This document shows, piece after piece, positions 15,231 through 52,023 of a stretch of 64,000 nucleotides of DNA; the first letter of the stretch is position 1; each line of letters opens with the position of its first letter. Location of the stretch: positions 62,001-126,000 of the forward strand of contig JASBUR010000020.1 of the NCBI GenBank assembly GCA_030147805.1, given 5' to 3'. Source of the stretch: Sphingomonadaceae bacterium (GTDB lineage Bacteria > Pseudomonadota > Alphaproteobacteria > Sphingomonadales > Sphingomonadaceae). Below the pieces are notes generated by a model. It saw only the letters and a list, made by a program, of their open reading frames with translations. It was not told the DNA's origin and ran no database searches. A program made the translations under genes and the position numbers.

Positions 15231-15305
<75 letters not shown>

Positions 15306-15383: not shown

Positions 15384-15515
15384 ATGGCCGATGCGACGAA
15401 AGAGACCCGCGAGGAGCGGCTGGCGAAGGCGCTCCGGGCGAATCTCGCCCGCCGCAAGGCGCGCGACCGCGCCGCAGCCGAGCCGCCGCCCGCCGGTGAT
15501 GCCCAGCGCGACTAG
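15384..15515 (+). CDS. 43-residue basic helical protein
   Basis: A short gene begins ATG GCC GAT GCG, with AAGGA eight bases upstream, and ends TAG. The product is MADATKETREERLAKALRAN followed by LARRKARDR and an Ala/Pro tail. It is strongly charged and almost certainly one amphipathic helix. Small proteins with a REERLA-ALRANL-RRK pattern are common in sphingomonads, but I know no function for them. It ends overlapping the msrA stop on the other strand. Confidence 0.65.
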   Translation: MADATKETREERLAKALRANLARRKARDRAAAEPPPAGDAQRD

Positions 15516-16102
15516 CCGACCTTTTTCCACACCTTGGCAAGCGCCGCGTCGCGGCCGCAGCCGATGCGGTACATGCGATAGCGTGCAGGGTTTCTGATGT
15601 GGAAATCCTGGTGCGCCGCCTCCGCCGCGTAGAAGGGCGCAGCCGGCAAAATGCGCGTTGCGATCGGGCCGGGCAGCACGCCGCTCTTCGCCAGCCTCGC
15701 CTTCGACGCCTCGGCGGCGGCGCGCTGCTCGGGGGTCACGAAGATCGCGGTGCGATAATTGGCCCCCTGGTCGCAGAACTGGCCGTCGGGGTCGGTCGGA
15801 TCGATCGACCGCCAATAGGCGTCGAGCAGACGTGCATAGCTGACCTTCTTCGGGTCATAGACGACGCGCACCGCCTCGAGGTGGCCGGTGTCGCTCGACA
15901 CCACCTGCGCATAGCTCGGATTGGCGACCTTGCCGCCGCTGAATCCCGAGGTCGTCGAAATCACGCCGGGTACCTTGTCGAAGGCGACCTCGGTGCTCCA
16001 GAAACAGCCCCCGGCGAACACCGCCACCGCGGTCGCGGCGGGCGCCGCCTGTCCGGCGATGCTGGTCAGCAGCGCCGCCGCGGCGATCGAGATCTTGCGC
16101 AT
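15512..16102 (-). CDS. msrA: peptide-methionine (S)-S-oxide reductase MsrA, exported
   Basis: This 196-residue protein has a signal peptide (MRKISIAAAALLTSIAGQAA) and then the MsrA catalytic motif AGGCFWSTEVAF with nucleophile C33. Further family landmarks are GHLEAVRVVYDP, DGQFCDQGANYRTAIF, and the tyrosine/histidine-rich AAEAAHQDFHIRNPARY. A further cysteine near the C-terminus (MYRIGCGRD) can serve as the resolving residue. It repairs the S epimer of methionine sulfoxide. Its ATG overlaps the msrB stop (TGATG). Export of both enzymes points to periplasmic protein repair. Confidence 0.96.
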   Translation of the reverse strand: MRKISIAAAALLTSIAGQAAPAATAVAVFAGGCFWSTEVAFDKVPGVISTTSGFSGGKVANPSYAQVVSSDTGHLEAVRVVYDPKKVSYARLLDAYWRSIDPTDPDGQFCDQGANYRTAIFVTPEQRAAAEASKARLAKSGVLPGPIATRILPAAPFYAAEAAHQDFHIRNPARYRMYRIGCGRDAALAKVWKKVG

Positions 16103-16602
16103 CAGGCCTTCTCCGCCGGAATGAATTTCAGCGCATCGCCGTTCATGCAGTAGCGCAGGCCCGTCGGCCTGGGCCCGTCGTCGAAGACATGGCCGAGATG
16201 GCCGCCGCAGCGGCGGCAGTGGACCTCGGTGCGCTCCATGAACAGGCTTCGGTCGGTCGTCGTACCGATCGCATCCTTCAGCGGCGCATAGAAGCTCGGC
16301 CAGCCGGTGCCGCTGTCGAACTTGGTCGTCGAACTGAACAGCGGCAGCGCGCAGCCGGCGCAGACGAAGGTGCCGCGCCGCTTCTCGCGATCGAGCGGGC
16401 TGCTTCCCGGCCGTTCGGTGGCGTGCTTGCGCAGCACCGCGAACTGATCGGGGGTCAGCCGCTTGCGCCATTCGGCCTCGCTCAGCTCGATCTCGAAGCG
16501 TTTCGGTGCGGCCTTGCCCGCACCACCGAGCGCGAAGGCGCCGGCCAGGCCGGCAACCCCGGCGAGCAGGCGGCGGCGATCGATCGAAATGCGCATCATC
16601 AT
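16102..16602 (-). CDS. msrB: peptide-methionine (R)-S-oxide reductase MsrB, Tat-exported
   Basis: This is a 166-residue MsrB. The N-terminus MMMRISIDRRRLLAGVAGLA looks like a twin-arginine signal followed by a hydrophobic stretch. The catalytic domain contains the two zinc pairs CAGC and CRRC, FDSGTGWPSFY, the HLGHVFDDGP motif, and the nucleophile in LRYCMNGDAL. It reduces the R epimer of methionine sulfoxide. The first of three tandem ATG codons is used because GGAGAGAC lies directly upstream. It is the promoter-proximal gene of msrB-msrA, with the peroxidase gene on the same strand upstream. Confidence 0.95.
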   Translation of the reverse strand: MMMRISIDRRRLLAGVAGLAGAFALGGAGKAAPKRFEIELSEAEWRKRLTPDQFAVLRKHATERPGSSPLDREKRRGTFVCAGCALPLFSSTTKFDSGTGWPSFYAPLKDAIGTTTDRSLFMERTEVHCRRCGGHLGHVFDDGPRPTGLRYCMNGDALKFIPAEKA

Positions 16603-25776: not shown

Positions 25777-25891
25777 CCTCTCCCCGCTGGGGAGAGGCTA
25801 GATGAGGGGCCGAGCGCCGCAGGCGCTCGGTTCTGCTCTCGCGGATGGGACGGTGCCCCTCACCCCAACCCTCTCCCCAGCGGGGAGAGGG
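25777..25891. repeat. composite inverted-repeat element of three hairpins
   Basis: Two copies of CCTCTCCCC/GGGGAGAGG hairpins (25777-25797 and 25869-25891) stand in inverted layout. They flank a CCGAGCGCC/GGCGCTCGG hairpin (25810-25830). GAGGGGC at 25804-25810 also pairs with GCCCCTC at 25855-25861. The whole 115-bp unit is therefore a nested palindrome, like a small non-coding mobile repeat. It fills most of the gap between the thiolase and methyltransferase genes. Confidence 0.8.
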
Positions 25892-25937
25892 AGCTAAGGT
25901 CTCGACAAGCGCCCGTCAAACCCTCAGCTTCGGCGCC

Positions 25938-26669
25938 ATGCGTCCGACCGTCGAGGAGCTCCGCGCCTATTACGCCACGCGCGACGGGCAGCGCGTGGCG
26001 CGCGAACTGGCGGCCACCGTGGCGCCCAAAATCCGGCAGGGAAACACCGCACGCCTGCTTGCGCTCGGCTATTGCGCGCCGCTGCTCAGCGGACTCGATC
26101 CGGCGCGGCTCGAACGGCTGGCGCTGGTGATGCCCGAGGACATGGGCGCTCACCGCTGGCCCTATGGCCGCCCCGGCTGCACGACGCTGGCCGACGAATT
26201 CAACCTGCCCTTCGCCGAAGCGATGTTCGATCAGGCGCTGCTCGCGCATGCACTGGAATTCGCCGAGCCGCCGCGCAAGCTGCTGCGCGAACTGTGGCGC
26301 GTGCTGGCGCCGGCCGGTGAGCTGGTGCTGATCGTGCCCAACCGGCTTGGGCTGTGGACGCATTTCGAGGCGACCCCGTTCGGCCAGGGGCGTCCCTGGG
26401 CAAAGGGCGAGCTGGCGCGGCTATTGCGCGAGGCGATGTTCGAGCCGGTTTCATGCCGCACGGCGCTAGTCGCGCCGCCGGTCCGGGGATTGCGCTGGCT
26501 CGACAAGCCGCTGATGCGCGTCGCCGCACGCTTCGGCGGCATCCATTTCGTGCTGGCACGCAAGACCGACGGGCTGGCGCCGACGATGATCGGCCGGGCC
26601 AGCGCCGCGACGGCGCGGGCGTCAGCTCGCCCAGTCGCGATGGAGACGTCGCGACGCGAGGAAGAATAG
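25938..26669 (+). CDS. class I SAM-dependent methyltransferase
   Basis: This 243-residue protein has the Methyltransf_11 pattern late in the domain: LPFAEAMFDQALLAHALEF then LWRVLAPAGELVLIVPNRLG. The SAM-binding region at its front (RLLALGYCAPLLSGL) is degenerate, lacking the usual GxGxG. RGLRWLDKPLMRVAARFGG near the end is a pattern seen in alphaproteobacterial methyltransferases encoded beside glyoxalase II genes; none is beside it here. The substrate is unknown. Its 3' end overlaps the convergent MFS gene by 48 bases. The ATG chosen is the first that avoids the upstream repeat element. Confidence 0.8.
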   Translation: MRPTVEELRAYYATRDGQRVARELAATVAPKIRQGNTARLLALGYCAPLLSGLDPARLERLALVMPEDMGAHRWPYGRPGCTTLADEFNLPFAEAMFDQALLAHALEFAEPPRKLLRELWRVLAPAGELVLIVPNRLGLWTHFEATPFGQGRPWAKGELARLLREAMFEPVSCRTALVAPPVRGLRWLDKPLMRVAARFGGIHFVLARKTDGLAPTMIGRASAATARASARPVAMETSRREEE

Positions 26670-47395: not shown

Positions 47396-47482
47396 GCGGT
47401 CGTGGCGGAACTGGTAGACGCGCAGCGTTGAGGTCGCTGTGGCCGAAAGGCCGTGGAAGTTCGAGTCTTCTCGACCGCACCA
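47396..47482 (+). tRNA. tRNA-Leu (anticodon GAG)
   Basis: The 87-nt sequence with encoded CCA folds as a class II tRNA. The acceptor stem is GCGGTCG/CGACCGC with discriminator A. The anticodon arm is CAGCG-TTGAGGT-CGCTG, and the long variable arm is GGCC-GAAA-GGCC. The T-stem is GGAAG/CTTCT. GAG reads CTC codons. Its 3' part is duplicated at 51836-51867, marking it as a probable integration site. Confidence 0.97.
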
Positions 47483-47487
47483 CCGAG
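47456..47487. repeat. attL-like repeat at the 3' end of tRNA-Leu
   Basis: GAAGTTCGAGTCTTCTCGAC and the following GCACCACCGAG match 51836-51867 at 28 of 32 positions. It covers the T-arm, acceptor 3' strand and CCA of the tRNA and runs 5 bases beyond. Direct repeats that rebuild a tRNA 3' end are typical products of integration. Confidence 0.7.
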
Positions 47488-47520
47488 TTATTCTCTGCAA
47501 AATCAACTACTTAGCTGCCA

Positions 47521-47550
47521 GAAATGGCGGGGCGAAAGCCCCGACATTTC
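47521..47550 (+). terminator. hairpin after tRNA-Leu
   Basis: GAAATG-g-CGGGGC pairs with GCCCCG-a-CATTTC around GAAA, with one mismatch. It lies 38 bases past the tRNA and probably ends its transcript, although no T tract follows. A near-homologous hairpin is at 51900-51929. Confidence 0.6.
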
Positions 47551-47740
47551 GGCGGCTTGAACCCCGCGCACCATATCGGTTGCGGCCAGAGAGCTTCCGG
47601 GAGAGGCATCGTGCGGTCTTCAGGCCCTGCCCTTCTCTCTGTTGAAGGCGGCGACCATGCGGGCTTGTATCGCAGCGACAGGCGAAGCCGCCCGAGCAGA
47701 CGCGCTTTCCGCGCGCCAGCCGTTAGCGCTCTGTCGTGAT
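47551..47740. other. gap with no recognisable gene
   Basis: About 190 bases between the tRNA-Leu hairpin and the barrel-protein gene contain only short, uninformative reading frames. No promoter or repeat is evident. Confidence 0.6.
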
Positions 47741-48568
47741 TCAGAATGCGAAAGCCGCCCTCAAGCCAACCGCCACTGTTCGAGTCTTTGGCTCAAACAG
47801 CTCGATGGCGCCTTCTGCGTCTGCGAGTATCGCGCTTCGAGAGCGGTCGATCTGCCACCCTCGCGCGAACGGCCCCACGCTTATGCGGCTGCTTCCGACC
47901 GGTAGGCTCACAGCTGCCGTCAACTCCCAGCCAGTGCCGCTTGGCAGGTCCAGCTTCACATCCGGCACGTCGGGATCGAGCTCAGAGAAGCGCGACACCG
48001 CCTCGCCGTTCGTTACGAAGTTGGCTTGCCCTGATAGCGTCAGCGTTGCCCGCTTGCCGAGCGGCAGACGGGCCGTCACGCCTACGGGCCAATAGCCGTA
48101 GCTGACCTCTCGGTCGTATCCCGCCAGTCCGTCGCTGGTCATGCGGCCGCCGCTATTGTCGTTGAGCACGCGCGCACCCACGCCGGCGTAGGGGGTTAGC
48201 GTCACTGCGCCGACGGCGAAGTCGCGGCCGGCGAGCAGTTCCAGTTGCCCGAAGTCCTGAGGCACGCCGTCGAGCCGTGACCCGTCATCCGACGAATAGT
48301 CGACCGATCCCCAGCCGAGCGTGAGACGGGCCTTCAGGAACCAGCCACTGCCGATCGTCTCGACATAGGTGCCTGTGATGCCGCCGAAAGTGCCGTCGTC
48401 CCGCACGATGGTCGCCCCTCCATCGCGCTCGCGGTAGGAGTAATCGAACAGCTCACCGCCGACCTCAAACCCGCCGTGAGTGCCTATAGAGGTCCCCGCC
48501 TCGGCCACCGCTGGCGTGCCCAACAAGCCGCATCCCAGTGCTATCAGACCTGCACGCAAATTCGTCAT
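47741..48568 (-). CDS. outer-membrane beta-barrel protein of unknown function
   Basis: This 275-residue protein has a signal peptide (MTNLRAGLIALGCGLLGTPA) and then alternating amphipathic strands ending in AFAF, a phenylalanine C-terminus fit for the BAM complex. FDYSYRERDGG, ARLTLGWGSVDYSSDDG, GVGARVLNDNSGG and ARLPLGKRATLTLSGQ are typical of autotransporter-barrel-like or OmpA-like outer-membrane proteins. I do not recognise a precise family. The start follows CGGAGG. It lies inside the putative island and is divergent from the response-regulator gene, so it may be controlled by that system. Confidence 0.8.
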   Translation of the reverse strand: MTNLRAGLIALGCGLLGTPAVAEAGTSIGTHGGFEVGGELFDYSYRERDGGATIVRDDGTFGGITGTYVETIGSGWFLKARLTLGWGSVDYSSDDGSRLDGVPQDFGQLELLAGRDFAVGAVTLTPYAGVGARVLNDNSGGRMTSDGLAGYDREVSYGYWPVGVTARLPLGKRATLTLSGQANFVTNGEAVSRFSELDPDVPDVKLDLPSGTGWELTAAVSLPVGSSRISVGPFARGWQIDRSRSAILADAEGAIELFEPKTRTVAVGLRAAFAF

Positions 48569-48718
48569 CGCAACCTCCGTCCCGGGCCGGCGGATATTCG
48601 CAGGCCATGAGAGGGAGGATCACTGTGGCAGCTTGCCGAACCCTGATACGAGAGCACCCGGCACGTCAGTTTCGCGTAAGCTTCGCCGGCGTACGATGCA
48701 GACGGAAGGGAATGAACG

Positions 48719-49393
48719 TTGCGTATTCTGCTGGTCGAGGACGAACCGGAGCTTGCCGCCGCCACAGCGGCGCTACTCGCTACCAACGGCTTTGTCGTGG
48801 ACCGCGCGAGCAGCCTGGGCGCGGCGATCGAGTCGGTGATGAGCGCCACCTATCGTGCCCTGCTCATCGACCGACGGCTGCCGGACGGCGACGGCCTTTC
48901 GCTGCTTCCGGTACTGCGCACGCGGCCAGTAGCAGCACCTGCCATTATCCTTACGGCGATGGATGACGTGCCCGATCGCATCGCCGGTCTCGATGCGGGT
49001 GCCGAAGATTATCTCATCAAGCCGTTTGCCATCGAGGAGCTGCTAGCGCGCCTGCGCGTGTTGCTCCGTCGCTCTCCCGGGCCGATTGCATCGGCAGCGG
49101 TCCGGGTCGGCCGCCTCGACTACGACCTTGCCGATCGGCAGGTGCGGATAGGAGGCTCAGCGATCGTACTGCCGCGACGTGAGTTGGCGTTGCTCGATGC
49201 GCTCGTCCGCCGTGCCGGTCGCGTGGTCCTGCGCGAGCATCTGGAAAATGACGTCTATGGCTTCGACGATGAGGTTCAGCCCAACGCCCTCGAAGCGGTC
49301 GTCTCGCGGCTGAGGCGCCGCCTCGGAGACGAGGGCGCGGCTGTCGTGCTGCACGGCGTGCGTGGTGTCGGCTACATGCTCCGGCCCGCCTGA
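48719..49393 (+). CDS. OmpR/PhoB-type response regulator
   Basis: This 224-residue protein begins at TTG, eight bases after GGAAGGG-like sequence. The receiver domain has acidic pocket VEDEPE, the phospho-acceptor aspartate in ALLIDRRLPDGDG, and the lysine in YLIKPFAIEELLARL. The C-terminal winged helix carries LPRRELALLDALVRRAGRVV and EAVVSRLRRRLGDEG, the recognition helix, then VRGVGYML. It is coupled to the sensor kinase by TGATG. Its likely targets include the neighbouring divergent barrel-protein gene, by inference. Confidence 0.93.
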   Translation: MRILLVEDEPELAAATAALLATNGFVVDRASSLGAAIESVMSATYRALLIDRRLPDGDGLSLLPVLRTRPVAAPAIILTAMDDVPDRIAGLDAGAEDYLIKPFAIEELLARLRVLLRRSPGPIASAAVRVGRLDYDLADRQVRIGGSAIVLPRRELALLDALVRRAGRVVLREHLENDVYGFDDEVQPNALEAVVSRLRRRLGDEGAAVVLHGVRGVGYMLRPA

Positions 49394-50739
49394 TGCGGCT
49401 TTGGCCTCGACGACCATCGCTTGCGCGCCGCATCGCGATCAGCTTCTTCATGTTTTATGCGCTGGCGCTGCTGTTTGCGGTGCAAGCTCTCTCATTCATC
49501 GCCCTGTTCGAAGACGATGCCCATTTCAGCGCCGATGTCGCGATGCATATGGTGTTCGCCGATTTGGAGAGCAGCGGACGCCTGGCGCTTCCTCCCGACG
49601 CGGAGATCATCGACCTTGCCGAGCGCAATCCCGGCCTATGGTTCGTCGCGCGGCAGGAAGGTCGCCAGCTGACCTTCGGCCCGGTCCCCGACGAAATCAT
49701 ACGGCTCCTCGATTCCGCGCCCGGCACACTGAAGATGCTCGAGCTTCGGCTGCCGGCAGGCGGTGGCCCGACCGCCGACGCTTCGCTTGAGCGTCGCGCC
49801 GCCGAGCGGGGCGAGCTGACAGTGATCGCCGGCGGCGCCGATCCCGCTACAATCGGGCGCGTTGGCTTCAACCTGTACCTGTACCGTCTGGGCGCGGTAT
49901 GGTTCATCATCGGAACGGTCGCTCTGGCGATCCCTGCGATTGCCATTATCGTGCCGCTGGTGCTCCGCGGCGTCCGCCCGCTCGCCGACGAGGCTGCGCG
50001 CATCGATCCGGCCGACCTTGGACATCGGCTCCCTGAGCGGGGCGCCGTTAAGGAGCTGCTTCCGCTCGTGCGCGCCTTCAATAGCGCGCTCGATCGCGTA
50101 GCAGAGGCATTCGATCGCCGGCGCCGCTTCATCGCGGACGTCGCGCACGAGCTTCGCACCCCGCTCGCCGTCCTCAACATGCATGTGGAATCTCTCCCTG
50201 CCGGCGGACGCAAACCCGATCTGCAACGCGGGGTATTCCGACTTGGACAGATGGTCGGACAGATGCTCGATGCCGAGCGGCTCGCGCTGGCGGCGCGGCG
50301 TCGCGAGGCCGTCGATCTCGTCGCGCTTACCCGCGAGACGGTTGCCGATATCGCGCCGCTCGCCGTCGCTAGCGGCTACGAAATCGCCGTCACCGCGGAA
50401 CTCGATTCTTCGCATGTGGAGGCCGATCCGCATGCTATCACTCGCGCAATCGGCAATCTGCTAGGGAATGCCGTCGCCCACGGCGGCAATCGCGGGCTCA
50501 TCGAGACCCGCGTCGGCCCGGGCCCCATTATCGAGGTGAGTGACCAGGGCCCCGGTATCGCTGCCGAGGCGCGGGAGCGCATCTTCGAGCCGTTCCGCCG
50601 AGAACGCTGGGATCGCGACGGCTGCGGACTTGGCTTGCATCTAGTCCGCGAGATCATGACCGCTCATGGCGGCACGGCTGCGCTGGTGAGTTCGTCCAGC
50701 GGGACGACCTTCCGGCTAGCGTTTCCGGCGTCGACCTAG
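49393..50739 (+). CDS. sensor histidine kinase of the island two-component system
   Basis: This is a 448-residue membrane kinase. TM1 is at about 10-40 (RIAISFFMFYALALLFAVQA), followed by a periplasmic sensor of about 120 residues and TM2 near 165-195 (WFIIGTVALAIPAIAIIVPL). A HAMP region comes next, then HisKA with the phospho-histidine in FIADVAHELRTPLAVLNMHV. The ATPase domain has NLLGNAVAHGG, VSDQGPGIA, and DGCGLGLHLVREIM. The sensor domain matches no known family by eye. It is coupled to the regulator upstream and sits two bases before the next gene. Confidence 0.93.
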   Translation: MRLWPRRPSLARRIAISFFMFYALALLFAVQALSFIALFEDDAHFSADVAMHMVFADLESSGRLALPPDAEIIDLAERNPGLWFVARQEGRQLTFGPVPDEIIRLLDSAPGTLKMLELRLPAGGGPTADASLERRAAERGELTVIAGGADPATIGRVGFNLYLYRLGAVWFIIGTVALAIPAIAIIVPLVLRGVRPLADEAARIDPADLGHRLPERGAVKELLPLVRAFNSALDRVAEAFDRRRRFIADVAHELRTPLAVLNMHVESLPAGGRKPDLQRGVFRLGQMVGQMLDAERLALAARRREAVDLVALTRETVADIAPLAVASGYEIAVTAELDSSHVEADPHAITRAIGNLLGNAVAHGGNRGLIETRVGPGPIIEVSDQGPGIAAEARERIFEPFRRERWDRDGCGLGLHLVREIMTAHGGTAALVSSSSGTTFRLAFPAST

Positions 50740-50741
50740 GG

Positions 50742-51701
50742 GTGGTTACCTGCGCACCAGCCATATCCCGACGTCAGCGGCTCGCATGGACGTTGCTCGC
50801 CACGATTCTCACTGGCGCGGCGCCCGTGCCGAGCCCCTATGTCGGACATCTCGACCTCGACGCGAACCGTCCTTATGTCACCGCCGCCATCAACGGCGAA
50901 CTGTTCAGGCTTCGCGTCGACCTCGACGCTCAGGGCTCAGTGGTGCTGAACCGCGAGGCCGCGCGGCGGACGGACTTCCAGCGGGGCGGCAGCGTGACGA
51001 TGAACATCGGGCCGGTTAAGTTTACCGGTCGCTTCGCACCGGCAACGCTCGCATTGGAAGGGCGGCAGGTGCCAGTCCAGGTCAAATGGTTCGTCCGCCG
51101 TGCCGCCAGCGATGCCGACGGCATCATTTCTCCGGCATTGCTACCCTTCGAGAGCGTGACGGTTGCCTACGATGTCCCCAAGGCGCCGAGCCGCCGTCTC
51201 AGCTTCAGCACGTCGCTCGAAGATGAGGCCGGTCTGCATATCCGCATGCCTGTAGGATCGCAGATTGTGAAGGTCCGCTTTTCACCCCGAGGCGAAACGG
51301 TCGCTACTGCCGCTGCCGGAGCCGTAATCGCCGGTTCGCAAGACGGCGCTTGGGGCGGTGACCAGCGGCGGTTGGAGATCGGCTATGGCATCGCGCGACC
51401 GGTCCGCCCGCTCGTGCTCGCCAAGCCGCTACAAGTAGGCCACCTGAGCGTCTATCGGATTCTCGTTCGGTTGGCAGATTTTGCTGGCCGACACGAACTG
51501 CCAGAGGAAGGCAACGCTGACGGCTCGCCCGATGAAATCGTCGTTCAGGCGCGACGGCCGACACAGAGCGCTGTTTATCGCGCAACGATTGGTCGAGAGA
51601 CCCTCGGCAGTTGCTATGCGGCTACGCTGTTTGCGGCGACTGATAGCCTGATCTTGGCATGCGCAGAGGAAAGCAACGCCGCGGGATCCCAACCCGGGTA
51701 A
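50742..51701 (+). CDS. secreted protein with retropepsin-like resemblance, unknown function
   Basis: This 319-residue protein starts at GTG two bases after the kinase stop. An N-terminal hydrophobic stretch (LAWTLLATILTGAAPVPSP) looks like a signal peptide. The next segment, HLDLDANRPYVTAAINGELF then RVDLDAQGSVVLNREAA, resembles the opening of retropepsin-like aspartyl proteases, but the catalytic D-T/S-G triplet is absent, so activity is doubtful. A second region (VVQARRPTQSAVYRATIG) resembles linkers of secreted proteins. It may bind peptide or act as a signal partner of the kinase. Confidence in the family is low. Confidence 0.65.
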   Translation: MVTCAPAISRRQRLAWTLLATILTGAAPVPSPYVGHLDLDANRPYVTAAINGELFRLRVDLDAQGSVVLNREAARRTDFQRGGSVTMNIGPVKFTGRFAPATLALEGRQVPVQVKWFVRRAASDADGIISPALLPFESVTVAYDVPKAPSRRLSFSTSLEDEAGLHIRMPVGSQIVKVRFSPRGETVATAAAGAVIAGSQDGAWGGDQRRLEIGYGIARPVRPLVLAKPLQVGHLSVYRILVRLADFAGRHELPEEGNADGSPDEIVVQARRPTQSAVYRATIGRETLGSCYAATLFAATDSLILACAEESNAAGSQPG

Positions 51702-51835
51702 AAGTCAGGACCCCATAACGTGTTCGCACGCTAGGCACGCAGTCAGGAGCAAACCTTCCTCGACGCGAAGCAAGGGCGGACCATCGCCTTTGAAATGTGG
51801 GCACTATTTTCCCGGAATGATGCCTTCATGGCACC

Positions 51836-51867
51836 GAAGTTTGAATCTTCTCGAGAGCACCACCGAG
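51836..51867. repeat. attR-like repeat, remnant of tRNA-Leu 3' end
   Basis: GAAGTTTGAATCTTCTCGAG and the following AGCACCACCGAG match the tRNA-Leu 3' end at 28 of 32 positions. No tRNA 5' half is recognisable upstream, so it is not a functional tRNA. Confidence 0.7.
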
Positions 51868-51899
51868 CTTTTGCCTTAGAATGCAATGGCTTGAGATTT

Positions 51900-51929
51900 G
51901 AAACGGCGGGGCGCGAGCCCCGCCGTTTC
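51900..51929. terminator. 13-bp perfect hairpin, homolog of the tRNA-Leu terminator
   Basis: GAAACGGCGGGGC and GCCCCGCCGTTTC pair around GCGA. It lies 33 bases past the attR repeat, almost the same spacing as the hairpin after tRNA-Leu (34 bases past attL). It was probably the tRNA's original terminator before insertion. Confidence 0.65.
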
Positions 51930-52023
51930 GCATATGTGCCGTTTGTGCTCTGATACGATAGGGCAGGCGCGGCGGCGCGAGGCAGCGTGTCGCCTTTCGG
52001 GCACTACAGCTGGAGCGAGATCC

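Follow-up and report, generated by a model that had tools for sequence, protein, structure and literature searches.

Segments of DNA that are flanked by att sites, and that can be mobilised in cis by an incoming related element, have been described as cis-mobilizable elements (CIMEs) (PMC7563491, PMC5704250). In Streptococcus they occur in accretion with ICEs or IMEs; microCIMEs measure 130–220 bp and CIMEs with cargo 1.2–13 kb (PMC7563491, PMC5704250). Insertion in tRNA genes by serine recombinases is also known, although within the open-access literature, to which our comparison is confined, it is called rare (PMC3218068); Mycobacterium AICEs at tRNA-Leu and phage phiRSM1 at tRNA-Ser are elements of this type (PMC3218068).

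The locus described here lies in a window of 64,000 nucleotides from a Sphingomonadaceae bacterium, where a tRNA-Leu(GAG) gene is followed by an island of four genes and then by an imperfect copy of the tRNA 3' end (Table 1). We propose that the segment from 47483 to 51862 is probably the remnant of an element that was inserted at the 3' end of this tRNA by a large serine recombinase (LSR, defined by PF00239 together with PF07508), and that the recombinase has been lost. The likeness to the Mycobacterium AICEs and phiRSM1 would lie in the serine recombinase and the tRNA target, which in the AICEs is also tRNA-Leu; the hosts differ and the window island has no recombinase, and the elements are likened by type and target, not by recombinase kinship. 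With the tRNA islands of tyrosine integrases the locus has in common a boundary at the tRNA 3' end, a copy on the far side and a tRNA that is left intact.

Table 1. Features of the tRNA-Leu(GAG) locus and the adjoining island (positions in the window).
Feature	Position	Strand	Basis or remark
tRNA-Leu(GAG)	47396–47482	+	ARAGORN; Rfam RF00005
tRNA-Leu(GAG) 3' end, presumed attB-derived half of attL	47456–47482		
Presumed right arm of element with terminator-like hairpin	47483–47592	+	resembles G241 LSR right arm
Hairpin in presumed proximal right arm	47526–47542		GGCGGGGC-GAAA-GCCCC
275-aa exported, all-beta, probably outer-membrane protein	47741–48568	-	ORF; GC3 0.75
OmpR/PhoB-type response regulator	48719–49393	+	PF00072 + PF00486; GC3 0.74
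Sensor histidine kinase	49393–50739	+	PF00512, PF02518, PF00672; GC3 0.75
319-aa exported protein, no known family	50742–51701	+	ORF; GC3 0.69
Putative distal att half site imitating tRNA 3' end	51836–51862	+	
Post-half-site sequence with hairpin	51863–51930	+	aligns with proximal copy; resembles G557 right arm (L195)

The last 27 bases of tRNA-Leu(GAG) and the five bases that follow them (GAAGTTCGAGTCTTCTCGACCGCACCACCGAG, 47456–47487) recur at 51836–51867 (GAAGTTTGAATCTTCTCGAGAGCACCACCGAG) with 28 of 32 matches; we will refer to these as the proximal and distal copies respectively. A repeat search extends the pair to 37 nt (84%, spacing 4380), and a single alignment of both copies covers 96 nt with an identity of 72% (E=2e-6 over the whole genome of 3.56 Mb). 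With the distal stretch itself excluded, its top match genome-wide is the proximal stretch. A GC hairpin follows each copy, at 47521–47551 and 51900–51930 (84% over 31 nt, spacing 4379), and the pattern CGGGGC-N(3-6)-GCCCCG is found only in these two hairpins on the plus strand of the 81 kb scanned. A first-pass annotation of this DNA had reported both the 32-base repeat, 4.38 kb apart, and the homologous hairpins; both are reproduced here, and the repeat proves to be part of the longer alignment. No third att copy is present as far as the contig end.

The distal copy differs from the tRNA core at four of 27 positions, two of which are adjacent in the acceptor stem, although the age of the copy could also explain mismatches. 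Its acceptor end reads CGAGAGC where the tRNA has CGACCGC, with GA for CC at 51855–51856 and a palindrome, TCTCGAGA, at 51849–51856; the junction as a whole (GAATCTTCTCGAGAGCACCA, 51843–51862) combines a left half that resembles the tRNA with changed bases in the acceptor stem. The exact 17-mer TCTTCTCGAGAGCACCA occurs in three of 250 family genomes and its reversed control in none. In G064 it has the orientation of tRNA-Leu(GAG) and follows that gene at a distance of 211 bp; in G245 it is near the end of one contig, with tRNA-Leu(GAG) on another. The change from CGACCGC to CGAGAGC is thus shared with G064 and G245, and is seen in a variant junction in G123; the signature pattern was not found in viral contigs. 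That the distal copy is a decayed tRNA-Leu gene, an outcome which the first-pass annotation had named as contrary to insertion, was considered and rejected: the upstream sequence aligns to the tRNA body with a score of 16 against a shuffle mean of 14.6 (316 of 1000 shuffles score as high), and Rfam finds a single tRNA, with none at the distal copy.

Within the island, the gene for the 275-aa protein is divergent from the two-component genes, with which it shares an intergenic region of 150 bp, and the histidine kinase gene overlaps that of the response regulator. The genes for the outer-membrane protein, regulator and kinase are found in G010 with order and orientation kept (52, 68 and 50% identity respectively), and constitute a conserved module. 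Of 250 family genomes, 37 encode the 319-aa protein or a homologue: the window's own and 36 others, the latter at about 35% identity or less. The module adjoins such a homologue at none of the 19 loci read with flanks. No homologues of the outer-membrane protein were found on plasmids. Neither the 275-aa nor the 319-aa protein matches a Pfam or NCBIfam family, and their single-sequence structure models (pLDDT 31 and 35 respectively) were set aside. The NCBIfam families closest to the histidine kinase are of the heavy-metal type, with scores far under the cut-offs, and we therefore assign no signal to the kinase. The simplest idea is that an envelope sensor pair controls the outer-membrane protein, and perhaps also the exported protein encoded behind it.

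The composition of the island sets it apart. GC3 of the 40 other genes in the window is 0.881 ± 0.040 (sd), with a lowest value of 0.752, and all four island genes are at or under this minimum; the tetranucleotide deviation of the island ranks with the highest values over 154 positions. Both shifts coincide with the repeat-bounded interval, and the island DNA looks foreign to its surroundings. A deviation of 47.5–51.9 kb in tetranucleotide and codon statistics, a comparison suggested by the first-pass annotation, is thus seen in both measures (GC3 for codons). The lowest-GC3 gene outside the island (15515–16471) is located near the window's other tRNA gene, tRNA-Thr(GGT) at 15231–15305, on the side of the tRNA's 5' end. 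In tetranucleotide composition, the part of the contig that was examined deviates most at about 12501–16885 of L239 (G000:C23, about 138501–142885), near the contig end.

As had been noted in the first-pass annotation, none of the four ORFs of the island encodes an integrase, and there are no recombination, conjugation or mobilization genes among them, nor is a conjugation gene remnant seen in the island. Neither an LSR gene nor a fragment of one is present at the locus or in the window's own assembly (91% complete), where a PF07508 recombinase is likewise absent. Because there is no LSR in the window or the assembly, we call the island a remnant and not a member of the LSR integrative elements at tRNA-Leu(GAG), which have that gene at their right end.

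The linkage of PFK to tRNA-Leu(GAG) is conserved across many sphingomonads, and the sequence 3' of this pair varies between genera. In the relatives read at this locus, which belong to genera other than the window's own, neither the island genes nor the two genes beyond are found 3' of the tRNA. At E<=1e-60, 115 of 299 family genomes encode LSR homologues, and tRNA-Leu(GAG) is within 1.5 kb at 16 of the best 30 LSR loci read; in G245 the LSR gene is directly 3' of this tRNA, with a DUF2924 gene adjoining. Other tRNAs at the best 30 loci (L179–L208) are Arg(TCT), Thr(CGT) and Leu(CAG), with one LSR family at their 3' ends.

The arrangement in the window, in which tRNA-Leu(GAG) is followed by a recombinase-less segment and then by a junction that resembles the tRNA but differs from it in the acceptor stem, is also seen in G123, G068, G148 and G064, and in the first three of these an LSR gene comes after the second junction. 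In G123 there are 421 bp between the tRNA site and the second junction, CTCGAGAGCACCATACAGTCC, whereas the stretch from the tRNA to TCTTCTCAACTGCACCAAACAGTCC is about 1.92 kb in G068 and G148 and contains one cargo gene. On the tRNA side the acceptor bases are unaltered, GACC in G123, G068 and G148 and GGCC in G064; at the second junction GAGA or AACT takes their place. Most genomes with an LSR at tRNA-Leu(GAG) have no tRNA-like far end, and the signature is therefore limited to a subset of the family. The cargo gene of G068 and G148 (L321:17204–18634; L322:3362–4789) encodes a T6SS Tle1-like phospholipase/catalytic domain (PF09994). G009:C2 contains two near-complete copies of tRNA-Leu(GAG), at 25866–25954 and 2585025–2585113. 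LSR genes are found there at positions 26166 and 2642493, and an element may have duplicated the tRNA in its entirety. A viral contig of 6.8 kb (L161, IMGVR_UViG_3300048835_000673) carries tRNA-Leu(GAG) together with two different LSR genes.

The sequences that follow the two copies were also compared with LSR right arms. The right arms at tRNA-Leu(GAG) begin NNCAGTC after CACCA with at most one change in all 21 cases (4–5 of 5 positions); the CAGTC mark is matched at three of five positions in the proximal copy and two of five in the distal copy, and mostly at 0–2 in non-LSR flanks. A profile of the LSR right arms gave no significant match in the window and found neither copy. With single right arms, the top match in 81 kb is the proximal copy for G241 (L202) and the distal copy for G557 (L195), and none of 42 control tRNA flanks without LSR ranks either window copy better than 38th. 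The hairpin of G241 has the same offset after CACCA as the proximal hairpin of the window, although hairpin position alone is not diagnostic, some non-LSR flanks having hairpins at +32 to +37. The hairpin 3' of the tRNA is best read as belonging to the right arm of the element. The sequence at 51863–51930 would be either a second right arm, as at a tandem junction (compare G123, G068 and G148), or the old chromosomal flank of the tRNA.

A plausible account of how the locus arose is that, in some LSR elements, attP has a left half which mimics the 3' end of the tRNA, with GAGA or AACT in place of the tRNA's GACC. Because the tRNA side retains its own acceptor bases, the crossover is expected on the 3' side of the altered ones, and strand exchange may take place in or after GCACCA; exchange at this point would therefore leave the tRNA intact, with the altered half site carried to the opposite end of the element. 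Before insertion, the tRNA-side sequence ending ...CGACCGCACCA would have adjoined the sequence now at 51863. The recombinase would have been lost later, with the cargo (the divergent outer-membrane protein gene, the two-component pair and the exported protein gene) staying between the two att sites. The best reading of the sequence is therefore a solitary, CIME-like remnant that would have attL at the tRNA and either attR or a tandem junction at 51836–51862. An integrated element had been placed at 47483–51867 by the first-pass annotation; the repeat, the composition and the layout of relatives with LSR support the element itself, and its right boundary is better set at 51862.

The lost enzyme was most likely an LSR rather than the usual tyrosine integrase. 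A decayed phage or island that had entered by the classical tRNA 3'-end route would be in keeping with the preference of tyrosine integrases for such ends (PMC8092301), and in viral contigs L157–L160, L162 and L163 such integrases are located at tRNA-Leu(GAG) or bear the 3' end of that gene. We nevertheless regard this origin as unlikely, since in the tyrosine-integrase phage at this tRNA (L158/L165) the attP core matches the tRNA exactly, whereas the distal copy has acceptor-stem changes of the type seen in junctions beside serine recombinases. As the tyrosine integrases of L157, L160, L162 and L163, which sit at tRNA-Leu(GAG) too, are unrelated, this tRNA is a shared insertion hotspot.

It is decidedly doubtful that the copies arose by duplication of the 3' end of tRNA-Leu together with its terminator, for instance as a decayed second tRNA-Leu gene or in a segmental duplication, and that the four genes came to lie between the copies in some other way. 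No resemblance to the tRNA body is found 5' of the distal copy and Rfam recognises one tRNA; both acceptor-stem changes are common to unrelated genomes, and GC3 marks the entire interval as foreign. In favour of duplication, the homology does not stop with the tRNA but takes in the terminator hairpin, as expected of a duplicated tRNA-terminator stretch; in a phage, the att copy on the far side normally stops at the core. That these are ordinary chromosomal genes next to a tRNA, with a chance similarity downstream, is highly improbable notwithstanding that tRNA-Leu flanks differ between genera without a visible element and that one non-island window gene (GC3 0.752) matches the top value of the island, given the 96-nt pair (E=2e-6 genome-wide), the GC3 of all four genes at or under the lowest of 40 others, and the exact signature at the same tRNA in other genomes.

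Taken as an LSR remnant, the island can be set beside the CIMEs. The sphingomonad units resemble CIMEs and microCIMEs in having no recombination genes, in being flanked by putative att sites at the end of the target gene, and often in a tandem arrangement with a recombinase-bearing element; their sizes are also comparable, at about 0.2–0.4 kb in G064 and G123 and 1.9–4.4 kb in G068, G148 and the window. The recombinase family in sphingomonads, however, is serine, and whereas the CIMEs of S. salivarius are farthest from the target gene, the recombinase-less segment in G123, G068 and G148 is next to it. The window island stands alone, unlike CIMEs in tandem accretion. By analogy we describe it as CIME-like in layout and do not claim CIME membership, which would imply derivation by deletion from an ICE or IME. 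The layout in G123, G068 and G148 suggests that such units may be mobilisable in cis after accretion, and a related element inserting alongside the window island, and then co-excising with it, could move it again by CIME-like accretion.

On a broader proposal our judgement is evenly balanced, namely that a widespread sphingomonad LSR family inserts at tRNA 3' ends and spares the tRNA by exchange just 3' of the acceptor stem, and that altered acceptor-stem bases derived from attP are the fingerprint of cargo islands orphaned by recombinase loss. If this is right, a 27-base scar would suffice to name the recombinase family behind an island from which the enzyme is gone, and a widespread case would be added to the insertions of serine-recombinase elements at tRNA genes, which have been called rare (PMC3218068). 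It would also mean that recombinase-less cargo units are situated between tRNA-Leu(GAG) and LSR elements in several sphingomonad genera.
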